From positions 1 to 32,388 of the forward strand of contig NZ_JAAKZV010000076.1 of assembly GCF_011044975.1 (NCBI RefSeq): 32,388 bases of DNA, given 5' to 3'. The position numbers were made by a program, and so were the translations under genes. The notes beneath the pieces are model-generated. The model was not told where the DNA came from. It saw only the letters and a list, made by a program, of their open reading frames with translations, and ran no database searches. The first letter of the stretch is position 1. Each line of letters starts with the position of its first letter. This stretch comes from Streptomyces coryli. GTDB taxonomy: Bacteria; Actinomycetota; Actinomycetes; Streptomycetales; Streptomycetaceae. Of this stretch, positions 1,902 through 11,160 are shown in pieces.

Positions 1902-2870
1902 GTGACCGTTCACATCGGCACCTCCGGCTGGCAGTACCGGGACTGGCGCGGGGTGCTGTATCCGCCGGGAGTGCCGCAGCGGCGCTGGCTGGAGGCATAC
2001 GCCGAAGGCTTCGGCACCGTCGAGCTCAACAACTCCTTCTACCGGCTTCCCGCGCGCGAGCTGTTCGCGGCGTGGCGCGAACGCACCCCGGAGGACTTCG
2101 TCTTCGCCGTGAAGGCCAACCGCGAGCTGACGCACGTCAGGAGGCTGCGGGAGCCGGCCGAGCAGGTGCGGCAACTGCTCGGCCATGCCGAAGGCCTCGG
2201 CGGCCGGCTCGGGCCCGTCCTGCTGCAGCTCCCGCCCTCACTGCGCGCCGATCCGGCGCTGCTGGACGACTGCCTCAGCTGCTTCCCCGCGGCCGTCCGG
2301 GTCGCGGTGGAGCCGCGGCACGACTCCTGGTGGACGCCGGCGGTACGCGCGGTACTGGAACGGCGCAATGCCGCGCTGTGCTGGGCGGATGTCGAGGCCC
2401 GGCCGGTGACCCCACTGTGGCGGACCGCCGACTGGGGCTATCTGCGGCTGCACCTCGGCACCGGGCTGCCCTGGCCCCGGTACGCACCGGACGAACTGCA
2501 CACCTGGGTGCGGCGGCTCGCCGCCGGCCGGCCGGACGGCAGCGACCTGTACGTCTACTTCAACAACAGCGAACCCGACGGCGCCGCGGTCCGCGACGCC
2601 GTGGCGTTCGCGGGCGACGCCGTCGCGGCGGGCATGAAGGTGGACCGCGTACCCAGGCTGCCCCCTCAGCGGGAGCGAGGCGGGACCGGATCGCCCCACG
2701 GCGCCTCCAGCGCCGACCGCAGCGCCGCGACCGCCTCTTTGCCGATACGGTCCGCCAGCCGCGCCTCCAGCTGCTCGAGCGCCCGGCGGGCCTGCGCGTG
2801 GGCGCGCTGCCCGGTTTCGGTACGGCGGATCAGCCGCTGCCGCGCCGACGACGGGTCGTGCACCTGCTGA
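1902..2870 (+). CDS. DUF72 (YecE-like) family protein with overlapping 3' tail
   Basis: The N-terminal 245 residues match DUF72 (YecE family): the opening HIGTSGWQYRDWRG, then FGTVELNNSFYRLP, a FAVKANRELTH segment, VAVEPRHDSWW and the late DLYVYFNNSE segment. The fold is TIM-barrel-like and the function is not established. GTG at 1902 is chosen for the AAGGAGG at 1888-1894. DUF72 proteins normally end soon after the FNN segment; here the frame runs on for about 70 codons to 2870, antisense to the MarR gene that ends at 2666. The tail is Arg/Ser/Cys-rich and looks like a shadow of the MarR frame. No plus-strand frame has a stop between 2640 and 2868, so a single frameshift would not restore a normal end. 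Either the overlap is real or a stop codon has been lost. Confidence 0.82.
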   Translation: MTVHIGTSGWQYRDWRGVLYPPGVPQRRWLEAYAEGFGTVELNNSFYRLPARELFAAWRERTPEDFVFAVKANRELTHVRRLREPAEQVRQLLGHAEGLGGRLGPVLLQLPPSLRADPALLDDCLSCFPAAVRVAVEPRHDSWWTPAVRAVLERRNAALCWADVEARPVTPLWRTADWGYLRLHLGTGLPWPRYAPDELHTWVRRLAAGRPDGSDLYVYFNNSEPDGAAVRDAVAFAGDAVAAGMKVDRVPRLPPQRERGGTGSPHGASSADRSAATASLPIRSASRASSCSSARRACAWARCPVSVRRISRCRADDGSCTC

Positions 2871-3109
2871 AGGAGGCCGGCGGCGACCAGCGCGTGGACG
2901 GCCTGGTGGACGGTCTGCCGGGTGACGCCGGTGCGCCGGGCCAGCGTGGAGATGGTCGTGCCGTCCTCGTCGAGCGCGGCGAACAGCTGCACCTGCGGCG
3001 GCGTCACTGTAGGCAACCCCTCGTCCGCCAGGGCGGCGAGCAGCCCGTCCTCGAACCATCGCCGGGCCGCACCCAGCAGTTGCAGCAGGTCGCGTTGGGA
3101 TTCGGTCAT
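2666..3109 (-). CDS. MarR family transcriptional regulator
   Basis: A 147-residue winged-helix protein of typical MarR length. Helices around TVTPPQVQLFAALDEDG, the recognition region ISTLARRTGVTRQTVHQAV and a wing with DPSSARQRLIRRTETG are all recognisable. MarR proteins are dimeric repressors usually released by a small phenolic ligand and commonly control a divergent neighbour and themselves. The gene diverges from the quercetinase-type cupin at 3195, and the 85-bp intergenic region is packed with TGTCAGG/CCTGACA half-sites, so it most likely represses that operon and itself; the inducer may be a flavonoid or a breakdown product (inference). Its last 205 bp lie antisense to the 3' end of the DUF72 frame. 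Confidence 0.88.
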   Translation of the reverse strand: MTESQRDLLQLLGAARRWFEDGLLAALADEGLPTVTPPQVQLFAALDEDGTTISTLARRTGVTRQTVHQAVHALVAAGLLQQVHDPSSARQRLIRRTETGQRAHAQARRALEQLEARLADRIGKEAVAALRSALEAPWGDPVPPRSR

Positions 3110-3137
3110 CGCATCCTTGCCCGGCGTCGGTGAGGAA

Positions 3138-3154
3138 TGTCAGAGTACCTGACA
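3138..3154. promoter_or_regulatory. MarR operator candidate 1
   Basis: TGTCAG-AGTAC-CTGACA is a 17-bp inverted repeat with six-base arms. It lies between the divergent MarR and quercetinase genes, next to a second inverted repeat built from the same half-site. Position and repetition fit an autoregulated MarR operator. Confidence 0.6.
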
Positions 3155-3160
3155 TACATC

Positions 3161-3175
3161 GTCAGGCAGCCTGAC
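3161..3175. promoter_or_regulatory. MarR operator candidate 2
   Basis: GTCAGGC-A-GCCTGAC is a 15-bp inverted repeat with seven-base arms around a single base, using the same TCAGG/CCTGA half-site as the repeat at 3138-3154. It lies 19 bp before the quercetinase start and overlaps the region expected to hold the promoter and leader, so binding there would block transcription. Confidence 0.6.
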
Positions 3176-3194
3176 ACACGCGAGGTGACCGTTC

Positions 3195-3752
3195 ATGACC
3201 ATGGAATACGCGACGCGCTACCGCAACGCCTCCCGGATACCGGCGGATCCGGGCCGGCCCTACGTCATCGAGCAGGGCGAAGGCGACCGCGCCCACCTGT
3301 TCGGCGACCTGATCACCGTCTACGCGGGCGGCGAGCAGACCGAGAACACCTTCAACTTCTTCACCGTCGAAGGCCCCAAGGGCGACATCATCCCGGCCCA
3401 CCTGCACACGGACACCCACGAGGTCTTCTACGTGACCCAGGGCGCCGTCCGCCTCTTCGCCGAGGGCCCCGACGGCAAGCAGCTCGAACGCACCCTCACC
3501 CCGGGCGACTTCGGCTTCGTTCCGAAGAACTGCCCGCACGCCTACCGGATGGAGCGCCATCACACCCGGATCGTCGGCGTCGCCGCCGGACCCGGCGGCA
3601 CCTTCGAGCGGTTCTTCGAGACCCTGGGCACGCCGACGGAGCAACTGGGCCTGCCGCAGCGTCCGTGCGTCCCCGAGCCGCACGAGTTCGCCGACGCGGC
3701 CGCCGCCTACGACGTCCGCTTCCTGCCCGGCCTGCGGTGGCGTACGGCGTGA
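3195..3752 (+). CDS. queD: Quercetin 2,3-dioxygenase, monocupin type
   Basis: A 185-residue single-domain cupin, the same size class as the nickel/cobalt quercetinase of Streptomyces sp. FLA. The metal ligands fall at the expected places: His69 and His71 in PAHLHTDTHEVF, Glu76 in the same motif, and His115 in KNCPHAYR. Known family enzymes cleave the heterocyclic ring of flavonols such as quercetin with O2, releasing carbon monoxide and an aromatic ester (depside). The ATG at 3195 follows a GAGGTG at 3182-3187. Its TGA overlaps the GTG start of the downstream hydrolase (GTGA at 3749-3752), so the two are translationally coupled. Regulation is probably by the divergent MarR repressor. The natural substrate could be another flavonol or a related enediol-like compound. 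Confidence 0.85.
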   Translation: MTMEYATRYRNASRIPADPGRPYVIEQGEGDRAHLFGDLITVYAGGEQTENTFNFFTVEGPKGDIIPAHLHTDTHEVFYVTQGAVRLFAEGPDGKQLERTLTPGDFGFVPKNCPHAYRMERHHTRIVGVAAGPGGTFERFFETLGTPTEQLGLPQRPCVPEPHEFADAAAAYDVRFLPGLRWRTA

Positions 3753-4627
3753 CCGACGAGCTGCGGAAGCTGATCGCCGCGCCGCACCCCGAGCACGCCC
3801 CGCTGCCGCCGGCCGCCGAGCGCGCGGGCGGGATCCGGGTGCTGCGCGGCGTCCCGTACGGCACCGTCGAGGGCGGCCGGCCGCTGGAACTGGACCTCTG
3901 GCTGCCGGCGTCGGCGGCCCGGCCCGCCCCCGTCGTGCTGTTCGCGCACGGCGGCGGCTGGCGGCGCGGCCGCCGCGACGACATGGGCGTGCACACCCGC
4001 CGCTGGACGCCGACTCCCTTCGAGCGCATCGCGGCGGCCGGCTTCGCGGTCGCCGCCGCGGACTACCGGCTCAGCGGCGAGGCGGCCTTCCCCGCCCAGC
4101 TGGACGACCTGCGGACGGCGCTGCACTGGCTCGGCGTCCGCGCGGCCCAGCTCGGCATCGCCGCCGAACGCACGCTGGCCTGGGGCGAGTCCGCGGGCGG
4201 CCACCTGGCCGCGCTGCTGGCGCTTACCCACCGCGACCCGCCGCTGGCGGGCGCCGTCGTCTGGTACGCACCCGCGGATCTGACGACCGCCCGGCCGCCC
4301 TTCGATCCCGCGGAGCCGGCGACGCCGGAGGGGCTGCTGCTCAGCGCAGCACCCGCCACCTCCCCCGCACGCGCCCGCGCGGCCAGTCCGCTGCATCAGG
4401 TCCACGCCGACGCACCGCCCTTCTTGCTCGTGCACGGCGAGCAGGACCGCCTGGTGTCCGTATCGCACAGCCGCGACCTGGCGGCCGCGCTGCGGAAAGC
4501 GGGCGCCCCGGCCGAGCTCCGTACGGTGCCGGGCGCCGATCACGGCTGGCACGGCCTGGGCGACGCCGGCGTGGCGGAAATCTTCGCCGCCTCACTGGAG
4601 TTCGCCGCCACCACCCTTCGAATCTGA
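3749..4627 (+). CDS. Alpha/beta hydrolase (esterase, HSL/BD-FAE-like)
   Basis: A 292-residue hydrolase with a complete catalytic set: oxyanion motif HGGGW (67-71), nucleophile Ser148 in GESAGG, Asp233 in HGEQDRLV and His265 in GADHGW. There is no signal peptide, so it is cytoplasmic. The GTG start at 3749 overlaps the stop of the quercetinase gene by four bases, indicating coupled translation and a linked role. Since quercetinase releases a depside ester, this enzyme is a good candidate to hydrolyse that ester to protocatechuate and a phloroglucinol carboxylic acid. That role is inferred from context; the family also contains kynurenine formamidases and carboxylesterases with broad activity. 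Confidence 0.85.
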   Translation: MTDELRKLIAAPHPEHAPLPPAAERAGGIRVLRGVPYGTVEGGRPLELDLWLPASAARPAPVVLFAHGGGWRRGRRDDMGVHTRRWTPTPFERIAAAGFAVAAADYRLSGEAAFPAQLDDLRTALHWLGVRAAQLGIAAERTLAWGESAGGHLAALLALTHRDPPLAGAVVWYAPADLTTARPPFDPAEPATPEGLLLSAAPATSPARARAASPLHQVHADAPPFLLVHGEQDRLVSVSHSRDLAAALRKAGAPAELRTVPGADHGWHGLGDAGVAEIFAASLEFAATTLRI

Positions 4628-4652
4628 TGGCCCGTCAGATACCGTCGGCCGC

Positions 4653-6248
4653 ATGGACACCGTGGATCAGCTGCTCCGGGCCCAGTGGAACGACCACCGG
4701 CCCGGCCTCCGCCACGACGACCTGGAGCTCAGCCGGCACGATGTGGCCGCGGCCGCCGCCGCGCGGGCCGCGCTGCTGGCGGAGCTGCTGCCGCCGGGAG
4801 CCGAGCCGCATGTCGGGGTGCTGCTGGGCAATGTGCCGGAGTATCCGCTGTGGCTGAGCGCCGCCGCGCTCGCCGGGGCCGCGGTGGTCGGGATCAACCC
4901 GACGCGGCGGGGCGAGGAGCTGGCCCGGGACATCCGGCACACCGAGTGCGCGGTGATCGTCACCGAACGGGAGCTGCTGCCGCTGGTCGAGGGCCTCGGG
5001 ATCCCGCTGCTGGTCACGGACTCCGACGCGTACGGGGAACGGCTCGCCCCGCACCGCACGGCGAGTCCCGTGGACTTCCCGGAGCGCGCCCCCGGCGACC
5101 GGATGCTGCTCACCTTCACCTCCGGCTCGACCGGCGCGCCGAAGGCGGTGATCGTCACGCAGGGGCGGCTGGCGCGGGCCGGGCAGGCGCTCGCGCGGCA
5201 GTTCCGGCTGGGCCCCGAGGATGTGCACTACGTCTGCATGCCCCTCTTCCACGGCAACGCGGTGATAGCCGGCTGGGCGCCCGCACTGGCGGGCGGCGGG
5301 GCAGTAGCGCTGCGCCGTACCTTCTCCGCGTCCGGGTTTGTCCCGGACGTGCGCCGCTACGGGGCCACCTACTTCACGTACGTGGGACGGGCCGTCCAGT
5401 ACATCCTGGCCACGCCCCCGAACGACGACGACCGCGACCACCGGCTGCGGATGGGCTTCGGCACCGAGGCCGGGGCGGTGGACGCCGCGCGCTTCGAGGA
5501 GCGCTTCGGGGTGCCGCTCATCGAGGGCTACGGTTCGTCGGAGGGCGGCGCCGCGATCCAGCGGACGCCGGACACCCCGGCGGGAGCGGTGGGCCGGGCC
5601 TCGCCAGGAGACGATCTCGCGGTCGTCGATCCGCGGACGGGCGCGGAGTGCCCGCCAGGCGTCATCGGCGAGCTGGTCAACCGGAGCGCCTCGGCCCGCC
5701 GCTTCGAGGGCTACTGGCGCAATGAGACGGCGGCGGCCGAACGCCGCCGCGGCGGCTGGTACTGGTCGGGAGACCTGTTCTTCCGCGACGAGGACGGCTG
5801 GCTCTACTTCGCCGGGCGCGCCGACGACCGCCTCCGCGTGGACGGCGAGAACCTGGCGGCCGCCGTCATCGAGGGCATCCTCGCCCGCTACGCCCCCGCG
5901 GCCGCCGCCTGCGTCTACGCTGTCCCCGACCCCGTCACCGGCGACCAGGTGATGGCGGCGCTGGCGCTGCGCGAGGCCTTCGACCCGGAGGACTTCCGCG
6001 CCTTCCTCGACGCCCAGGACGACCTCGGCACCAAGGCGGCCCCACGGTTCGTACGGATCATGGACCACCTCCCCGTGACCGCCACCAGCAAGGTCCGCCG
6101 CAGCGAACTGCGCGCCGAGGCCTTCCGCTGCACCGACGAGGTGTGGTGGGCGCCGGAGGGCGGCCCGTACCGGCGGCTGACCGGGGCGGACCTGGACAAA
6201 CTGCTGCGCCGCTACGAGGAGCACGGCCGCGCGGCGCTGCTCGGCTGA
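4653..6248 (+). CDS. Acyl-CoA synthetase (AMP-forming), FadD17-like
   Basis: A 531-residue member of the adenylate-forming ANL superfamily. The P-loop FTSGSTGAPKA spans residues 155-165, YGSSEGG is the A5 motif, WYWSGDLFFRDEDGW and GRADDRLRVDGEN give the A7-A8 region, and Lys480 in TSKVRRSELR is the acylation lysine. It activates a carboxylic acid to its CoA thioester through an acyl-adenylate. The overall look, opening MDTVDQLLRAQWNDHRPGL, recalls mycobacterial FadD17-type proteins usually annotated as long-chain fatty acid CoA ligases, but the acyl pocket cannot be judged by eye. It starts 25 bp after the esterase, with no clear ribosome binding site, so it is probably in the same transcript. 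An aromatic acid from flavonoid breakdown is a possible substrate. Confidence 0.87.
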   Translation: MDTVDQLLRAQWNDHRPGLRHDDLELSRHDVAAAAAARAALLAELLPPGAEPHVGVLLGNVPEYPLWLSAAALAGAAVVGINPTRRGEELARDIRHTECAVIVTERELLPLVEGLGIPLLVTDSDAYGERLAPHRTASPVDFPERAPGDRMLLTFTSGSTGAPKAVIVTQGRLARAGQALARQFRLGPEDVHYVCMPLFHGNAVIAGWAPALAGGGAVALRRTFSASGFVPDVRRYGATYFTYVGRAVQYILATPPNDDDRDHRLRMGFGTEAGAVDAARFEERFGVPLIEGYGSSEGGAAIQRTPDTPAGAVGRASPGDDLAVVDPRTGAECPPGVIGELVNRSASARRFEGYWRNETAAAERRRGGWYWSGDLFFRDEDGWLYFAGRADDRLRVDGENLAAAVIEGILARYAPAAAACVYAVPDPVTGDQVMAALALREAFDPEDFRAFLDAQDDLGTKAAPRFVRIMDHLPVTATSKVRRSELRAEAFRCTDEVWWAPEGGPYRRLTGADLDKLLRRYEEHGRAALLG

Positions 6249-6300
6249 CCCGCCGCCGACGCCCCGCATGGCGTCGTGACGCACCTCCCGCGCCCAAACA

Positions 6301-6315
6301 GTGGTGTCCCACCAC
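6301..6315. promoter_or_regulatory. Short inverted repeat upstream of the MHS transporter
   Basis: GTGGTG-TCC-CACCAC is a perfect six-base-arm inverted repeat in the 144-bp gap between the acyl-CoA ligase and the transporter. It could be a regulator site or a weak hairpin separating the two transcripts. No T-run follows, so I do not call a terminator. Confidence 0.3.
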
Positions 6316-6392
6316 ATGTGCCGGTGACCTGCGGATTTCTACGGTGTGGCGACATCGAGTCGTCCCCGAACCCGCTACCGGAAGTGGTCACC

Positions 6393-7769
6393 ATGCCCTC
6401 CTCGGCACCCGCACCACCGCAGTCCCACTCACTGCGCCGCATCGTCGCCGCGAGCCTGATCGGCACCACCATCGAGTGGTACGACTTCTTCCTCTACGGC
6501 GCCGCCGCCGCGCTCGTCTTCAACGAGCTGTTCTTCCCGGACTCCGACCCGCTCACCGGCACCCTGCTGAGCTTCGTGACGTACGCCGTCGGCTTCGCCG
6601 CCCGCCCGCTCGGGGCGCTGGTCTTCGGACACTACGGGGACCGCCTCGGCCGCAAGAAGCTGCTGGTCCTCAGCCTGCTGCTGATGGGCGGCGCGACCTG
6701 CGCCATCGGCCTGCTGCCGACCCACGCCACGATCGGCTCCCTGGCACCGGTGCTGCTCACGCTGCTGCGCCTGGTGCAGGGCTTCGCCCTCGGCGGCGAG
6801 TGGGGCGGCGCGGTGCTGCTCGTATCGGAGCACGGTGACCCGAAGCGCCGCGGCTACTGGGCCTCCTGGCCGCAAACCGGCGCCCCCGCCGGACAGTTGC
6901 TCGCCACCGGCGTGCTGGCGGCGCTGACCGCGCTGCTGTCGGAGAGCGCCTTCAACTCGTGGGGCTGGCGGATCCCGTTCCTGCTGTCCGGTGTCCTCGT
7001 CGTGGTCGGCCTGTGGATCCGGCTGTCGGTGGAGGAGTCGCCGGTCTTCAAGGCCGCACGGGAGCAGGCCGAGAAGACCCCGTCCGACGACGAGCCGCCG
7101 CTGATCGGCGTGCTGCGCCACCACTGGCGCGACGTCCTGGTGGCGATGGGCGCGCGGATGGCCGAGAACATCAGCTACTACGTGATCACGGCCTTCATCC
7201 TCGTCTACGCGGTCGAGCAGGCCGACATGAGCAAGCAGACGGCCCTCAACGCGGTGCTGATCGCCTCGGCCGTGCACTTCGCGGTGATCCCGCTGTGGGG
7301 CGCGGCCTCCGACCGGTTCGGCCGGCGGCCGGTCTATCTGCTGGGCGCGGCCGGTATCGGCGCGTGGGCGTTCCCGTTCTTCATGCTGATCGACACCAGC
7401 AGCTTCGGCGCCCTGCTCCTCGCCGTCACCGTCGGCCTGGTCCTGCACGGGGCGATGTACGCGCCGCAGGCGGCGTTCTTCTCGGAGATGTTCGCGACCA
7501 GGATGCGCTACTCGGGCGCCTCGATCGGCGCCCAGTTCGCGTCCGTTGCGGCCGGCGCCCCGGCCCCGCTGATCGCGACGGCGCTGCTCGCGGACTTCGA
7601 CAGCTCTACCCCGATCTCGCTGTATCTGCTGGCGGCTGTGGCGCTGACGCTGATCGCCGTGTGGGTGGCGAAGGAGACCCGGGCGCGCGACCTGTCCGGC
7701 CAGGATGCGGGCGGCCCGCCCGCCGACCGGGTGGCGGCGGAGGCGTCCGCCACCCGAAGCCTGCCGTAG
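6393..7769 (+). CDS. MFS transporter, metabolite:H+ symporter (MHS) family
   Basis: A 458-residue polytopic protein with about twelve hydrophobic segments. The opening IGTTIEWYDFFLYGAAAA is characteristic of MHS-family symporters (relatives of ShiA, ProP and KgtP), which import small metabolites such as shikimate, osmolytes or dicarboxylates with protons. The loop motifs GHYGDRLGRKK after TM2 and GAASDRFGRRP after TM8 are the duplicated MFS A motifs. The ATG at 6393 is chosen because GGAAG lies just upstream; the frame is open further back but that part is not hydrophobic or conserved-looking. It follows the quercetinase-esterase-ligase genes in the same direction and may import an aromatic acid, but the 144-bp gap and hairpin leave separate transcription possible. 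A terminator follows directly. Confidence 0.88.
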   Translation: MPSSAPAPPQSHSLRRIVAASLIGTTIEWYDFFLYGAAAALVFNELFFPDSDPLTGTLLSFVTYAVGFAARPLGALVFGHYGDRLGRKKLLVLSLLLMGGATCAIGLLPTHATIGSLAPVLLTLLRLVQGFALGGEWGGAVLLVSEHGDPKRRGYWASWPQTGAPAGQLLATGVLAALTALLSESAFNSWGWRIPFLLSGVLVVVGLWIRLSVEESPVFKAAREQAEKTPSDDEPPLIGVLRHHWRDVLVAMGARMAENISYYVITAFILVYAVEQADMSKQTALNAVLIASAVHFAVIPLWGAASDRFGRRPVYLLGAAGIGAWAFPFFMLIDTSSFGALLLAVTVGLVLHGAMYAPQAAFFSEMFATRMRYSGASIGAQFASVAAGAPAPLIATALLADFDSSTPISLYLLAAVALTLIAVWVAKETRARDLSGQDAGGPPADRVAAEASATRSLP

Positions 7770-7772
7770 CGC

Positions 7773-7802
7773 TGCCGGTTTGCCGGAACGGCAACGGCAT
7801 TT
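7773..7802 (+). terminator. Probable Rho-independent terminator after the MHS transporter
   Basis: Starting four bases after the transporter stop, TTGCCG-GAA-CGGCAA forms a tight stem, extended by a second pairing TGCCG (7773-7777) with CGGCA (7795-7799) across a two-base bulge. A short ATTT run follows. The structure is compact and correctly placed to end the transporter transcript. Confidence 0.6.
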
Positions 7803-7874
7803 GCCTCCTCCGTGCCGCCGGATGACCCTGGACACGTCACCGCCCAGGACATCCGGCGCAACGGAGGAATGCCC

Positions 7875-8513
7875 ATGTCGACAGCGCAGCCCACCGACCC
7901 GACGGAGTTCTGGGAGGACCGCTACCGCGCCACCGACCGCGTCTGGAGCGGCGAACCCAACCCGCTGCTCGTCAGGGAAGCCACCGATCTGAAGCCGGGC
8001 ACCGCGCTCGACCTGGGCTGCGGCGAGGGCGCCGACGTCCTGTGGCTCGCCGCCCGCGGCTGGCAGGTGACCGGCGTGGACATCTCCGCCACCGCGATCG
8101 AGCGGGCGGCGGCGCACGCGGCCGAGGCCGGCCTCACCGAGCAGGTCGCGTTCGAGCGCCACGAGCTCGGCGTCACCTTCCCGGAGGGCAGCTACGACCT
8201 GGTCAGCGCACACTTCCTGCAGTCACCGGTGGCCCTGGACCAACACGGCGTACTCAAGCGCGCCGCCGCCGCGGTCGCCCCCGGCGGCACCCTGCTGATC
8301 GTCATGCACGCCGGCTGGGCCACCTGGCAGACACCCGAGGAACGGCCGGTCGCCGACGTCGTGTTCCCCACCCTCCAGGGCTTCCTCGACGATCTCGCCC
8401 TGCCGCCCGGCTGGCACCTGGAAACCCAGGACGCCGTGACGCGGGTCTCGAACGCCCCCGACGGCAGGCCCGGCACCCGCACCGACAACGTGTGGCGCCT
8501 GACCCGTCGCTAG
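7875..8513 (+). CDS. Class I SAM-dependent methyltransferase
   Basis: A 212-residue Rossmann-type methyltransferase. Motif I is ALDLGCGEGAD, the acidic end of strand 2 is VTGVDIS, and a post-motif region YDLVSAHFLQSP is followed by VAPGGTLLIV (motif III). The N-terminal FWEDRYRATDRVWSGEPNP segment is typical of a broad actinobacterial group related to TehB/thiopurine-type enzymes; the methyl acceptor is unknown. ATG at 7875 is preferred over the ATG at 7869, because GGAGG at 7863-7867 gives a spacing of seven bases to the former and one base to the latter. The stop codon overlaps that of the convergent PucR gene in a shared CTAG at 8510-8513. It has its own leader after the transporter terminator, so it is probably monocistronic. 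Confidence 0.86.
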   Translation: MSTAQPTDPTEFWEDRYRATDRVWSGEPNPLLVREATDLKPGTALDLGCGEGADVLWLAARGWQVTGVDISATAIERAAAHAAEAGLTEQVAFERHELGVTFPEGSYDLVSAHFLQSPVALDQHGVLKRAAAAVAPGGTLLIVMHAGWATWQTPEERPVADVVFPTLQGFLDDLALPPGWHLETQDAVTRVSNAPDGRPGTRTDNVWRLTRR

Positions 8514-10330
8514 CCCGCCAGCCGCAGCAGCCGCAACGCCAGCTGGATCTCCAGCACTCGGGCCGGACTCTGCCAGTCCGGCCCGAGCAGCGCCGCGACC
8601 CGCTCCAACCGCTGCGCCACCGTGTTCACATGGACGTGCAGCACGTCCTTCGTCCGCACCGGACTCATCCCCGCCGCGAAGTACGCCTCCAGCGTGTGCA
8701 CCAGCTCCGTGCCCCGCCGCGTGTCGTAGTCCGCGACCGCGCCGATGGTGCGGCGTACGAAACCCTCCACATCCCGGGTCTCACCCAGCAGCAGCCCGAG
8801 GAAGCCGAAGTCCTCCGCCGCCGCGCCCTCCCCCTCGCGCCCCAGCGCCAGCATCGCGTCGAGGCACCGCACCGCTTCCGCGTACGCCACCGCGACCGCC
8901 GCGGGCTCGCCCGCGGGCGCGGGCACCGGCGCCGAGGCGCCGACCGTCACCGGGGCGTGCACGGCGGCGCCGAGGTGCCGGGCGGCCTGCGCCGCCGCGT
9001 TCGAGGCCGAACCGCCCGCGGGCACGAGCAGCACCACGCCCCCGTCCCGCGCCGCGGCGAGCCCGTGCCGTACGGACGCCAGATGCCCGGCCGCGTCGAC
9101 GAGCCGCTGCCGCCCCGCGGGATCGGTGAGGTCGGCGCGCGCCGCCAGCACCACATGCGCGGTGTCCAGCTCCGCGCCGAGCCGCGCGGCGCGCTCGCGC
9201 AGCAGCCGCGGCTCGCGGCCCGGCGCGTCCAGCAGGTCGTCGAGGAGCTCGCCGCGCACCCGCTGCTCCGCCTCGCCGGCCGAGCGGCGGGCCAGCAGCA
9301 GCAGCGAGGTGACCATCGCGGCCCGCTCCAGGGTGCGCTGGTCGAGCGGGTCGAGATCGGGATGCCCGTGCAGCATCAGCGCACCGAGGCACTCACCGCC
9401 CGCAGCGACCGGCGCCACCCAGGCATCGCCGTGCCGCACGGCATGACCCTCGGCCCGTACCGGCACGGACTCCGCCGCCGTGAACTCGACCTTCCCGTCG
9501 AGCACTTCGGCGAGCGCGTCCGCCACGTCCTCCACCCCGCCGCCGCGCAGCACCAGCTCGGTGAGCCGGTCGTGCACGTCGGAGGCGCGCTCCATGGTCT
9601 CCTTGGCCGCCTCCAGGCCTGCCACCGCGGCGCGGGTCCTGGCGAGCAGGTCCGCGGATTCGATGGCGACCGCGGCGTGCGCGGCGAAGGAGCCGAGCAG
9701 CGCGATCTCCTCGCGTTCGAAGACCCGGGGCCGCCGGTCCGCGGCGTAGAGCACGCCGATGACCTCGCTGCCGAGGGTGAGCGGCACGCCGAGGATGGCG
9801 ACCAGACCCTCGTCGCCGACCGCCGTGTCGATGTGCTCCATGTGCCGGAAGCGCGGATCGTCGAAGTAGGAGTCGGTGGCGTACGGGCGCGCCGTCTGCG
9901 CCACCAGGCCGCCCAGGCCCTCGCCCATGCCGAGCCGCAGCTGCTGGAAGCGGGCGGCGACCGAGCCCTCGGTGACGCGCATGTAGGTCTGGCCGCTGGC
10001 CGGGTTGTTCATGCTCAGATACGCGACGTCCGTGCCGAGCAGCGAGCGGGCCCGGTGCACGATCGCGTGCAGCACCGCGTCCAGGTCGCGCAGTCCCGCC
10101 AGGTCGTGGGCGGTCTCGAAGAGTGCGGACAGCTCGGTCTCGCGGCGGCGCAGGCCCTCGTGCTCGGCCCGTACGGTCAGCGCCAGGTCGCGGGCGCGGG
10201 CGAGGGCGGCAACCTCCGTATCCGATGCCCCGTCGGCGCGGGCGCGCAGCACCGGCTGCTCGTACTCGCCCGCGGCCGCGCCGCGGGCGAGGAGCTCCAG
10301 GTAGGGCAGCTCGGGCTGAGTGGGGGACAT
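8510..10330 (-). CDS. GAF domain-containing PucR/CdaR-type transcriptional regulator
   Basis: A 606-residue regulator. A GAF domain covers roughly residues 70-230 (ALFETAHDLAGLRDLDAVLH through VIGVLYAADRRPRVF), followed by a helical stretch, a central region typical of CdaR-type proteins, and a C-terminal PucR-type helix-turn-helix with YFAAGMSPVRTKDVLHVHVN and TVAQRLERVAALLG. Such proteins are usually ligand-responsive regulators of catabolic genes. The ATG at 10330 has AAGGTAGG nine bases upstream; a GTG six bases further up is possible. It begins 38 bp after the stop of the 3-hydroxybutyrate dehydrogenase-like gene on the same strand, so the two are probably cotranscribed and it may regulate that operon. 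The GAF ligand is unknown. Confidence 0.86.
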   Translation of the reverse strand: MSPTQPELPYLELLARGAAAGEYEQPVLRARADGASDTEVAALARARDLALTVRAEHEGLRRRETELSALFETAHDLAGLRDLDAVLHAIVHRARSLLGTDVAYLSMNNPASGQTYMRVTEGSVAARFQQLRLGMGEGLGGLVAQTARPYATDSYFDDPRFRHMEHIDTAVGDEGLVAILGVPLTLGSEVIGVLYAADRRPRVFEREEIALLGSFAAHAAVAIESADLLARTRAAVAGLEAAKETMERASDVHDRLTELVLRGGGVEDVADALAEVLDGKVEFTAAESVPVRAEGHAVRHGDAWVAPVAAGGECLGALMLHGHPDLDPLDQRTLERAAMVTSLLLLARRSAGEAEQRVRGELLDDLLDAPGREPRLLRERAARLGAELDTAHVVLAARADLTDPAGRQRLVDAAGHLASVRHGLAAARDGGVVLLVPAGGSASNAAAQAARHLGAAVHAPVTVGASAPVPAPAGEPAAVAVAYAEAVRCLDAMLALGREGEGAAAEDFGFLGLLLGETRDVEGFVRRTIGAVADYDTRRGTELVHTLEAYFAAGMSPVRTKDVLHVHVNTVAQRLERVAALLGPDWQSPARVLEIQLALRLLRLAG

Positions 10331-10368
10331 GTGCACAGACCTACCTTGCGGAACGTGGGAAGCGCCAG

Positions 10369-11160
10369 TCAGTGGGCGGTCCAGCCGCCGTCGAGGACGA
10401 GCGAGGTGCCGGTGACGAAGGCGGCCTGCGGGCCGCACAGGTACGCCACCGCCTCGGCCACCTCGTCCGGCTCCAGCAGCCGCTTCATCGCCTGGTCGGC
10501 GAGCAGCACCTCGCGCAGCACCCGGTCCTCGGGGATGCCGTGCGCGGCCGCCTGGCCCGCGATCTGCCGTTCGACCAGGGGGGTGCGTACGTAGCCCGGG
10601 CAGACGCAGTTGGAGGTGACGCCGTGCTCGGCGCCCTCCAGCGCGGCGGTCTTCGACAGGCCTTCGAGGCCGTGCTTGGCGGCGACGTAGGCGGCCTTGT
10701 ACGGCGAGGCGCGCAGGCCGTGCACGGAGGAGACGTTGACGATACGGCCCCAGCCCTGGCCGTACATGTGCGGCAGCGCGCCGCGGATGAGCCGGAAGGG
10801 CGCCTCGAGCATCACCGTCAGCACCTTGGCGAAGATCTCGGGCGGGAACTCCTCGATCGGCTTGACCAGCTGCAGCCCGGCGTTGTTCACCAGCACGTCG
10901 GTGCCGGCCGCGGCCTGCTCGGCGGCGTCGAGGTCGGTGAGGTCGAGCGGCAGCGCCTCGACGGTGCCGGGCGCGGCCGCCGCCACCAGCTCGCGGAGCC
11001 CGGCGGCGTCGAGATCCACGGCACGCACCTTCGCGCCCGCCGCCGCGAGCCGCAGCGCGCAGGCGCGGCCGATGCCGCCCGCGGCGCCGGTGACGAGGGC
11101 GGTGCGGCCGGAGAGGTCGCAGACGGAGGGGACGGGAACGGCTGCGGGTGCGAGGCTCAT
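10369..11160 (-). CDS. 3-hydroxybutyrate dehydrogenase-like short-chain dehydrogenase
   Basis: A 263-residue classical SDR. The cofactor motif TGAAGGIG is at 24-31, NNAG at 92-95, and the catalytic Ser145, Tyr158 and Lys162 lie in NVSSVHG and YKAAYVAAKHG. The SSVHG-SPYKAAYVAAKHGLEGL pattern and the C-terminal VTGTSLVLDGGWTAH match D-3-hydroxybutyrate dehydrogenases, which oxidise 3-hydroxybutyrate to acetoacetate with NAD+ in ketone-body and polyhydroxybutyrate use. The Asn of the SDR tetrad appears to be replaced by Met117 (VLTVMLEAPF). The start at 11160 is the only good ATG, though the ribosome binding site is weak. The PucR regulator follows 38 bp downstream, and an inverted repeat at 11195-11213 lies upstream. 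Confidence 0.82.
   Translation of the reverse strand: MSLAPAAVPVPSVCDLSGRTALVTGAAGGIGRACALRLAAAGAKVRAVDLDAAGLRELVAAAAPGTVEALPLDLTDLDAAEQAAAGTDVLVNNAGLQLVKPIEEFPPEIFAKVLTVMLEAPFRLIRGALPHMYGQGWGRIVNVSSVHGLRASPYKAAYVAAKHGLEGLSKTAALEGAEHGVTSNCVCPGYVRTPLVERQIAGQAAAHGIPEDRVLREVLLADQAMKRLLEPDEVAEAVAYLCGPQAAFVTGTSLVLDGGWTAH

Follow-up and report, generated by a model that had tools for sequence, protein, structure and literature searches.

The queD locus of Streptomyces coryli

Here, we describe a small gene group around a queD-type flavonol dioxygenase gene and a candidate esterase gene on contig NZ_JAAKZV010000076.1 of Streptomyces coryli. The whole stretch of high-GC DNA that was analysed comprises 32,388 nucleotides and is called the window in the following. 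Its central genes (Table 1) encode a cupin of 185 amino acids and an alpha/beta hydrolase of 292 amino acids; the TGA stop of queD (3750-3752) overlaps the GTG start of the hydrolase gene (3749) within the motif GTGA, i.e., by 4 bp. An acyl-CoA ligase gene follows with its ATG at 4653, separated from the hydrolase end by 25 bp, and then a gene for an MHS transporter, for which the ATG at 6393 is a more likely start than the upstream GTG at 6276. A preliminary description had reported the coupled stop and start, the complete hydrolase and the ligase at this spacing, and all of them were found again, as was the transporter gene. The gene set is extended here by a divergent MarR-type gene and by two palindromes located between this gene and queD. 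We also observe that a DUF72 reading frame (1902-2870) extends about 200 bp into the MarR gene on the opposite strand; since its family match covers residues 20-237 only, the 3' end of this frame may be altered or misread.

Table 1. Features of the proposed flavonol-cleavage locus in the window
Feature	Position	Strand	Basis
queD-type monocupin, flavonol (quercetin) 2,4-dioxygenase	3195..3752	+	phmmer match to QueD, metal ligands
BD-FAE-family alpha/beta hydrolase, proposed flavonol-depside esterase	3749..4627	+	Pfam BD-FAE, triad pattern, pairing, 4-bp overlap, co-occurrence, tree
Divergent MarR-family regulator, proposed flavonol-responsive repressor	2666..3109	-	Pfam MarR_2 (1e-12), homologs at queD loci
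Putative operator site 1, ATGTCAGAGTACCTGACAT, one mismatch to the conserved core	3137..3155	.	palindrome
Putative operator site 2, TCGTCAGGCAGCCTGACAC, exact core, 22 bp from site 1	3159..3177	.	palindrome

From homology, the cupin is with near certainty a QueD-type quercetinase (EC 1.13.11.24), as the preliminary description had proposed. Residues 1-184 match QueD of Streptomyces sp. FLA (phmmer against PDB entries 5FLI/5FLJ/5FLH, E ~3e-93), and the 3His/1Glu metal site is complete, with H69, H71, E76 and H115 at the residue numbers of the FLA enzyme. The three histidines are kept in all 91 aligned cupins and E76 in 90 of them. The product of a quercetinase is a depside ester; FLA QueD yields CO and 2-protocatechuoylphloroglucinol carboxylate, according to the consulted part of PMC4416304. 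A QueD-like cupin with 35% identity (L094:1501-2019, identical with L158:7592-8140), located beside an amidohydrolase and a hydrolase gene, carries His in place of the metal ligand Glu76, and the hydrolase of the same locus carries Ala in place of the catalytic Ser. Since an engineered E76H variant of FLA QueD retained about 2% of the activity and the wild-type fold (PMC4416304), this cupin could represent a naturally occurring four-His relative.

The hydrolase matches Pfam BD-FAE (PF20434) with 152.1 bits (2e-44; cut-off 26.8). Its predicted catalytic triad, assigned from the alignment pattern, consists of S148 within GESAGG, D233 and H265, and the HGGxW motif is present. Among 57 distinct hydrolases that are paired with a cupin, H67, G68, G69, W71 and D233 occur in all 57, S148 in 55 and H265 in 56, with one position unread; R76 and R107 are likewise present in 57 of 57. 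Tannase (EC 3.1.1.20) was considered and rejected: subtype B, the sole tannase model matched, gives 25.4 bits where 300 are required.

Pairing with queD and the proposed role of the hydrolase

In total, 149 cupin relatives were confirmed, of which the best 80 were retained as queD loci, so that counts over these loci concern close relatives. A hydrolase homolog is present in 50 of the 80 and, the window included, lies on the strand of queD in 51 of 51 cases. In 32 of these 51 the overlap of the two genes amounts to exactly 4 bp, in three more to 1-35 bp; 15 pairs show a gap of 262-1652 bp, and in L064 the hydrolase gene is located 5 kb upstream. The adjacency on which the preliminary description built thus recurs across species. 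In L005, L008 and L170 (the locus of G245) the hydrolase match falls into two frames or pieces, as does queD in G282, possibly due to frameshifts from sequencing error or decay.

Both genes also tend to occur together at the level of whole genomes. In a draw of 295 Streptomyces-genus genomes, queD is intact in 41 and present in two frames in G282, and 30 have the hydrolase at E < 1e-75. Both genes are found in 29 genomes, queD only in 13, the hydrolase only in one and neither in 252 (Fisher p 6e-29, without correction for kinship); this value is only indicative, because the 1e-75 line was chosen after a gap in the scores had been seen and the relatedness of the genomes inflates such statistics. 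One of the 13 queD-only genomes, G245, does have the hydrolase adjoining queD, in two frames, while in G009, one of the 29 with both genes, they are 271 kb apart on one contig.

A further line of evidence comes from distant cupins. Among 393 genomes of the class, 11 carry a queD-like cupin at E <= 1e-30, five of them close relatives and six distant ones (35-49% identity). Four of the five close relatives have the hydrolase in the short stretch examined (G610 does not), and all six distant cupins have a hydrolase homolog (42-56% identity) beside them, in two cases with one intervening gene. The genus-level draw adds two distant cupins, G072 (47%) and G012 (35%), neither with a hydrolase match at E 1e-35; in G072, a BD-FAE hydrolase with 40% identity to that of the window (Pfam 1.6e-54) directly follows the cupin gene. 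Altogether, in seven of the eight distant cases (35-49% identity) a BD-FAE-type hydrolase gene adjoins the cupin gene or is separated from it by a single gene. Chance adjacency of the two genes is ruled out by the co-occurrence in genomes and by these distant pairs, and we consider the functional tie between hydrolase and queD to be strong.

Matches were also obtained in 26 plasmid records, and 13 regions were inspected. The Alloyangia plasmid, from an alphaproteobacterium, encodes a bicupin relative whose gene overlaps that of a downstream BD-FAE hydrolase, again by 4 bp, and plasmid NBC_01558 also has the queD-hydrolase pair. A carboxylesterase-family gene lies immediately upstream of the cupin gene on a Thioclava plasmid; in Rhodococcus and Haloarcula an annotated alpha/beta hydrolase adjoins the cupin, which is no clear relative of ours (<90 bits). 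No esterase gene was adjacent to the cupin in the inspected regions of Priestia, Salipiger, Croceibacterium and Halalkalicoccus, and tblastn gave MarR and queD with no hydrolase in H1 (Streptantibioticus) and H4 (Nonomuraea); the H9 region (Rhizobium) was inspected as well. A conjugative plasmid of Klebsiella variicola (L127:1-10447) carries genes for a quercetin dioxygenase, a GH1 glycosidase, an AraC-type protein and an alpha-L-rhamnosidase, with a carboxylesterase-family gene three genes upstream, and looks like a rutin-degradation cluster.

The tree of 66 hydrolases, whose base is without resolution, places the linked sequences from Streptomyces, Kitasatospora and Amycolatopsis acidicola together with the distant G405 sequence in a clade of 51 (support 100/99), and the closest relatives of the window hydrolase are Streptomyces sequences. 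Outside this main clade are the remaining distant linked hydrolases, L064, the alphaproteobacterial sequence and seven unlinked relatives from the genus Streptomyces. The genus-level draw gave 18 matches to such unlinked relatives (E 1e-35 to 1e-56) besides the split copy in G245; the eight included in the tree (L160-L167) all fall outside the main clade, the unlinked G294 sequence beside a distant linked one. The unlinked hydrolase of G278 is placed inside the main clade next to a linked sequence, which suggests a loss of queD there. Cupins and hydrolases co-diverge (Mantel r 0.69 for 55 pairs and 0.76 for 49 pairs, p 0.0005), which is of little weight since shared descent alone could produce such a correlation.

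The genes found around the pair in related genomes point to the reaction. An amidohydrolase gene lies downstream of queD in eight of the 80 loci and is followed by the hydrolase gene in the seven where a hydrolase is visible; the order queD-amidohydrolase-hydrolase is also seen in G442, G405 and G134 (amidohydrolase identity 53%, 71% and 87%, respectively). Solved relatives of this amidohydrolase include 2F6K (the best match, a metal-dependent hydrolase with unstated function) and, among others, uracil-5-carboxylate, gamma-resorcylate and 5-carboxyvanillate decarboxylases. Gamma-resorcylate is 2,6-dihydroxybenzoate and has one hydroxyl fewer than the A-ring acid of the depside. In L076, a DUF1427 gene is located between queD and the amidohydrolase gene; a similar gene seemed likely by eye in L061, and is not claimed, as the scanned stretch gave no match.

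Genes for the fate of the B ring are present as well. In G072, a 4-hydroxybenzoate 3-monooxygenase (NF006091, 603.8 bits, cut-off 351) and PcaDC (NF051488, 536.8 bits, cut-off 390) are encoded within 3.5 kb of the pair. In G442, genes within about 7 kb encode a protein matching the 4-hydroxybenzoate 3-monooxygenase model (559.9 bits), a CoA-transferase of the PcaJ/ScoB family and a dioxygenase of the LigB family, and the hydrolase gene is adjoined by a catechol-type intradiol dioxygenase gene in G623 and by an aromatic-ring hydroxylase gene in G558. An alpha-L-rhamnosidase, which would free the flavonol from rutin, is encoded near the pair in G405 and G642. A hydrolase that splits the depside would be the simplest single account of these neighbourhoods. 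The gene row of G072 (L168:3862-8886), i.e., PcaDC, 4-hydroxybenzoate 3-monooxygenase, a LysR-like gene (by eye), the distant QueD-like cupin and the BD-FAE hydrolase, looks like a compact B-ring pathway for kaempferol and quercetin.

The same neighbours bear on two other explanations. The hydrolase might act before QueD and deacylate flavonol glycosides that carry acyl or hydroxycinnamoyl groups, in the manner of a feruloyl esterase, to free the flavonol for the dioxygenase. BD-FAE is said to be named after a feruloyl-esterase-type activity, and the alpha-L-rhamnosidase genes near some pairs make glycosides plausible substrates. A deacylase for plant glycosides would often be exported, however, and the N-terminus of the hydrolase (MTDELRK) has no obvious signal peptide by eye; in relatives, a decarboxylase-like partner and neighbouring PobA/PcaDC genes fit the depside products, so that we regard this role as unlikely. 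The second explanation concerns the substrate of the cupin. A Hod-type dioxygenase is followed by an amidase, and by analogy the cupin clade could act on another 3-hydroxy-4-oxo heterocycle (e.g., 2-alkyl-3-hydroxyquinolones) with the hydrolase cleaving an N-acylanthranilate. Such chemistry would be analogous, as it comprises CO-releasing 2,4-dioxygenolysis and subsequent hydrolysis (Hod/Qdo; PMC6479552, consulted part), but full-length similarity to an enzyme whose quercetinase activity was measured, the gamma-resorcylate-decarboxylase-like partner, and the genes for rhamnosidase, 4-hydroxybenzoate hydroxylase and the protocatechuate pathway near relatives render it distinctly improbable.

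We therefore propose, from genome context, that the hydrolase is a flavonol-depside esterase in a small flavonol-cleavage operon, and assign a probability of about 0.77 to this reading. Several observations weigh against it. The BD-FAE family comprises a broad range of esterases. No hydrolase match is found in the examined stretch of 30 of the 80 queD loci, although in six of these (L027, L044, L051, L055, L068 and L079) the contig ends less than 1.4 kb from queD, and 12 of the 41 genomes with intact queD give no match at E < 1e-75; queD is thus often kept without the hydrolase, as a pure detoxification role would allow. A replacement esterase was not seen when, for seven of the 30 loci, a single gene downstream was scanned against Pfam: three had no Pfam match and the others were assigned to SpoIIE, TPR, FMN dehydrogenase and argininosuccinate synthase. 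The distant cupin of G012 has no hydrolase within the 16 kb examined. Finally, the catalytic serine is replaced by Ala in the hydrolase of G405, where the amidohydrolase is present at the locus, and by Tyr in that of L035, and these two proteins may hence be inactive or misread. G072 is one case for the esterase, G012 and the two homologs without the serine are three against it, and these cases do not shift the estimate given above.

Putative operator and extent of the proposed operon

A MarR homolog is encoded in 63 of the 80 queD loci, in 60 of them divergently and immediately upstream. In 74 of the 80 loci, a palindrome with the core GTCAGGnnnCCTGAC (71 exact, three with one mismatch) precedes queD by no more than 133 bp, namely in 63 of 63 loci with MarR and in 11 of 17 without. 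The 22-bp spacing of the two sites in the window is also observed in L001, L002, L003, L007 and L017. The loci without the palindrome (L049, L062, L067, L069, L076 and L080) all lack a MarR match; in five of these six, a gene of one family is divergent from queD, and the single member scanned is of AraC type. At the six distant class cupins, the palindrome was not found.

When 20 whole genomes, selected from loci having the operator site, were scanned, TGTCAGGNNNCCTGACR occurred at 23 distinct places, 22 of which are at the queD promoter by their coordinates; one of the 20 genomes also gave a match to a control pattern. A scan of nine other genomes that tolerated one mismatch found the site at queD in five of the seven that have queD (G039, G086, G104, G110 and G112; not in G009 and G134), with five scattered matches elsewhere (one each in G086, G278 and G294, two in G110), and the control matched two genomes. 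The 23rd place lies in S. flavidovirens G675 (L152:5672), where a DUF1427 gene begins about 130 bp from the site and is transcribed away from it. The surrounding cluster (L152:5208-10408) contains DUF1427, TetR-like, MFS and alpha-L-rhamnosidase genes and is possibly a rutin branch of the queD regulon.

With its divergent MarR gene and a conserved palindrome in the common promoter, the window shows the usual pattern of a MarR-autoregulated catabolic operon, and the queD operon is, as far as this arrangement indicates, probably inducible. In Streptomyces sp. FLA, quercetin induces the transcription of queD, and the mechanism of its regulation was termed elusive (PMC4416304, consulted part).

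The preliminary description had drawn the operon wider: queD, the hydrolase, the CoA ligase and the MHS transporter were to form one catabolic unit, in which the ligase or the transporter deals with the aromatic acids. Its core, a quercetinase with a coupled depside esterase, is well supported by the comparative evidence; the membership of the ligase and the transporter is not. In favour of the wider unit are the spacing of 25 bp and the best scores of the MHS protein, which, below cut-off, are those of metabolite/H+ symporter and shikimate transporter models. The best curated models of the ligase, i.e., steroid-22-oyl-CoA synthetase, FadD17 and FadD1, are all below cut-off, too. Against it, searches of the 80 other queD loci gave no more than two proteins for the ligase (28-29% identity) and two for the MHS transporter (36%). 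Orthologs of the ligase occur in 49 of 101 Streptomyces-genus genomes, and in the nine that also have intact queD (G001, G026, G049, G061, G076, G080, G085, G094 and G104) the ligase gene either lies on a different contig or is separated from queD by about 90 kb or more. Orthologs of the MHS transporter (at least 63% identity) occur in 45 of 61 genomes, in 40 of which a PucR gene lies within about 0.3 kb (read by eye). The four-gene unit is therefore very improbable, and, judged from gene order, ligase and transporter are neighbours separate from the queD module.

In the window, a PucR-type regulator is encoded on the minus strand (8510-10336), next to a gene whose product scores above the cut-off of the 3-hydroxybutyrate dehydrogenase model TIGR01963. 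Together with the MHS gene they look like a module of their own (6393-11160), in which a methyltransferase gene is located between MHS and PucR. In two Amycolatopsis loci (L064:8754-10424 and L065:2716-4386), the gene immediately after queD encodes a PucR-type regulator with 41-42% identity to that of the window.

Proposed pathway and comparison with known systems

In the pathway that we propose, QueD, a metal-dependent monocupin, would open the C ring of quercetin-type flavonols with O2 to give CO and 2-protocatechuoylphloroglucinol carboxylate. The serine hydrolase encoded by the overlapping gene would then cleave the aryl ester of the depside to protocatechuate (4-hydroxybenzoate in case of kaempferol) and 2,4,6-trihydroxybenzoate. 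The divergent MarR protein presumably binds the palindromes in the common promoter and is released when the flavonol or the depside is present. In the related operons that carry an amidohydrolase gene between the two genes, the encoded enzyme may act as a decarboxylase that converts 2,4,6-trihydroxybenzoate to phloroglucinol. From a broader point of view, it is moderately probable that Actinobacteria and some proteobacteria share a dedicated flavonol module of a MarR-type flavonol sensor, QueD and a depside esterase, the latter as the founder of a new functional clade within BD-FAE. A longer form would add the 2,4,6-trihydroxybenzoate decarboxylase and a DUF1427 membrane protein, with a rhamnosidase feeding in rutin and the protocatechuate and phloroglucinol routes draining the products.

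No gene is assigned to the depside-hydrolysis step in the open-access literature searched, which covers few subscription journals. The step was credited to unnamed 'gut esterases' (PMC8269047), which are also postulated in PMC12940152, as far as the consulted parts of both texts go, and the literature on 'depsidase', in the portions accessible, consists mostly of tannase papers. This study names a candidate gene clade for a step that pathway accounts draw without a gene, points to an enzyme of the relatives that may decarboxylate the A-ring product, and adds a candidate regulator with a 19-bp palindromic putative operator for the promoter whose control was called elusive. If true, each part would allow genome-based prediction of actinobacterial flavonol breakdown.

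The proposed reaction is reportedly that of an esterase from the rutin degradation of Aspergillus flavus, which is said to act on the quercetinase depside (Child, Simpson and Westlake, 1963); this is a fungal enzyme, for which no gene or sequence was found for comparison with the window hydrolase. Gamma-resorcylate and 5-carboxyvanillate decarboxylases match the amidohydrolase of the longer operons in sequence, whereas its gene is absent from the window and its activity on 2,4,6-trihydroxybenzoate is a prediction. Hod/Qdo 3-hydroxy-4-oxoquinoline 2,4-dioxygenases share the CO-releasing ring cleavage with subsequent hydrolysis of an acyl-aryl bond, but they are cofactor-free proteins of the alpha/beta-hydrolase family and not cupins (PMC6479552, consulted part), and the bond is an amide instead of an ester. 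BD-FAE esterases such as Lip_vut4 (6NKF), the best PDB match, have the family, the Ser-Asp-His pattern and the HGGxW motif in common with the window hydrolase, which matches 6NKF only distantly (E 1e-32) and belongs to a separate clade tied to flavonol dioxygenases. QueD of Streptomyces sp. FLA (5FLH/5FLI/5FLJ; PMC4416304) is a full-length monocupin ortholog with identical metal-ligand numbering; the main text of that report is without the terms 'gene cluster', 'operon' and 'esterase', and the window adds to this enzyme a coupled candidate esterase, a MarR gene and a putative operator.

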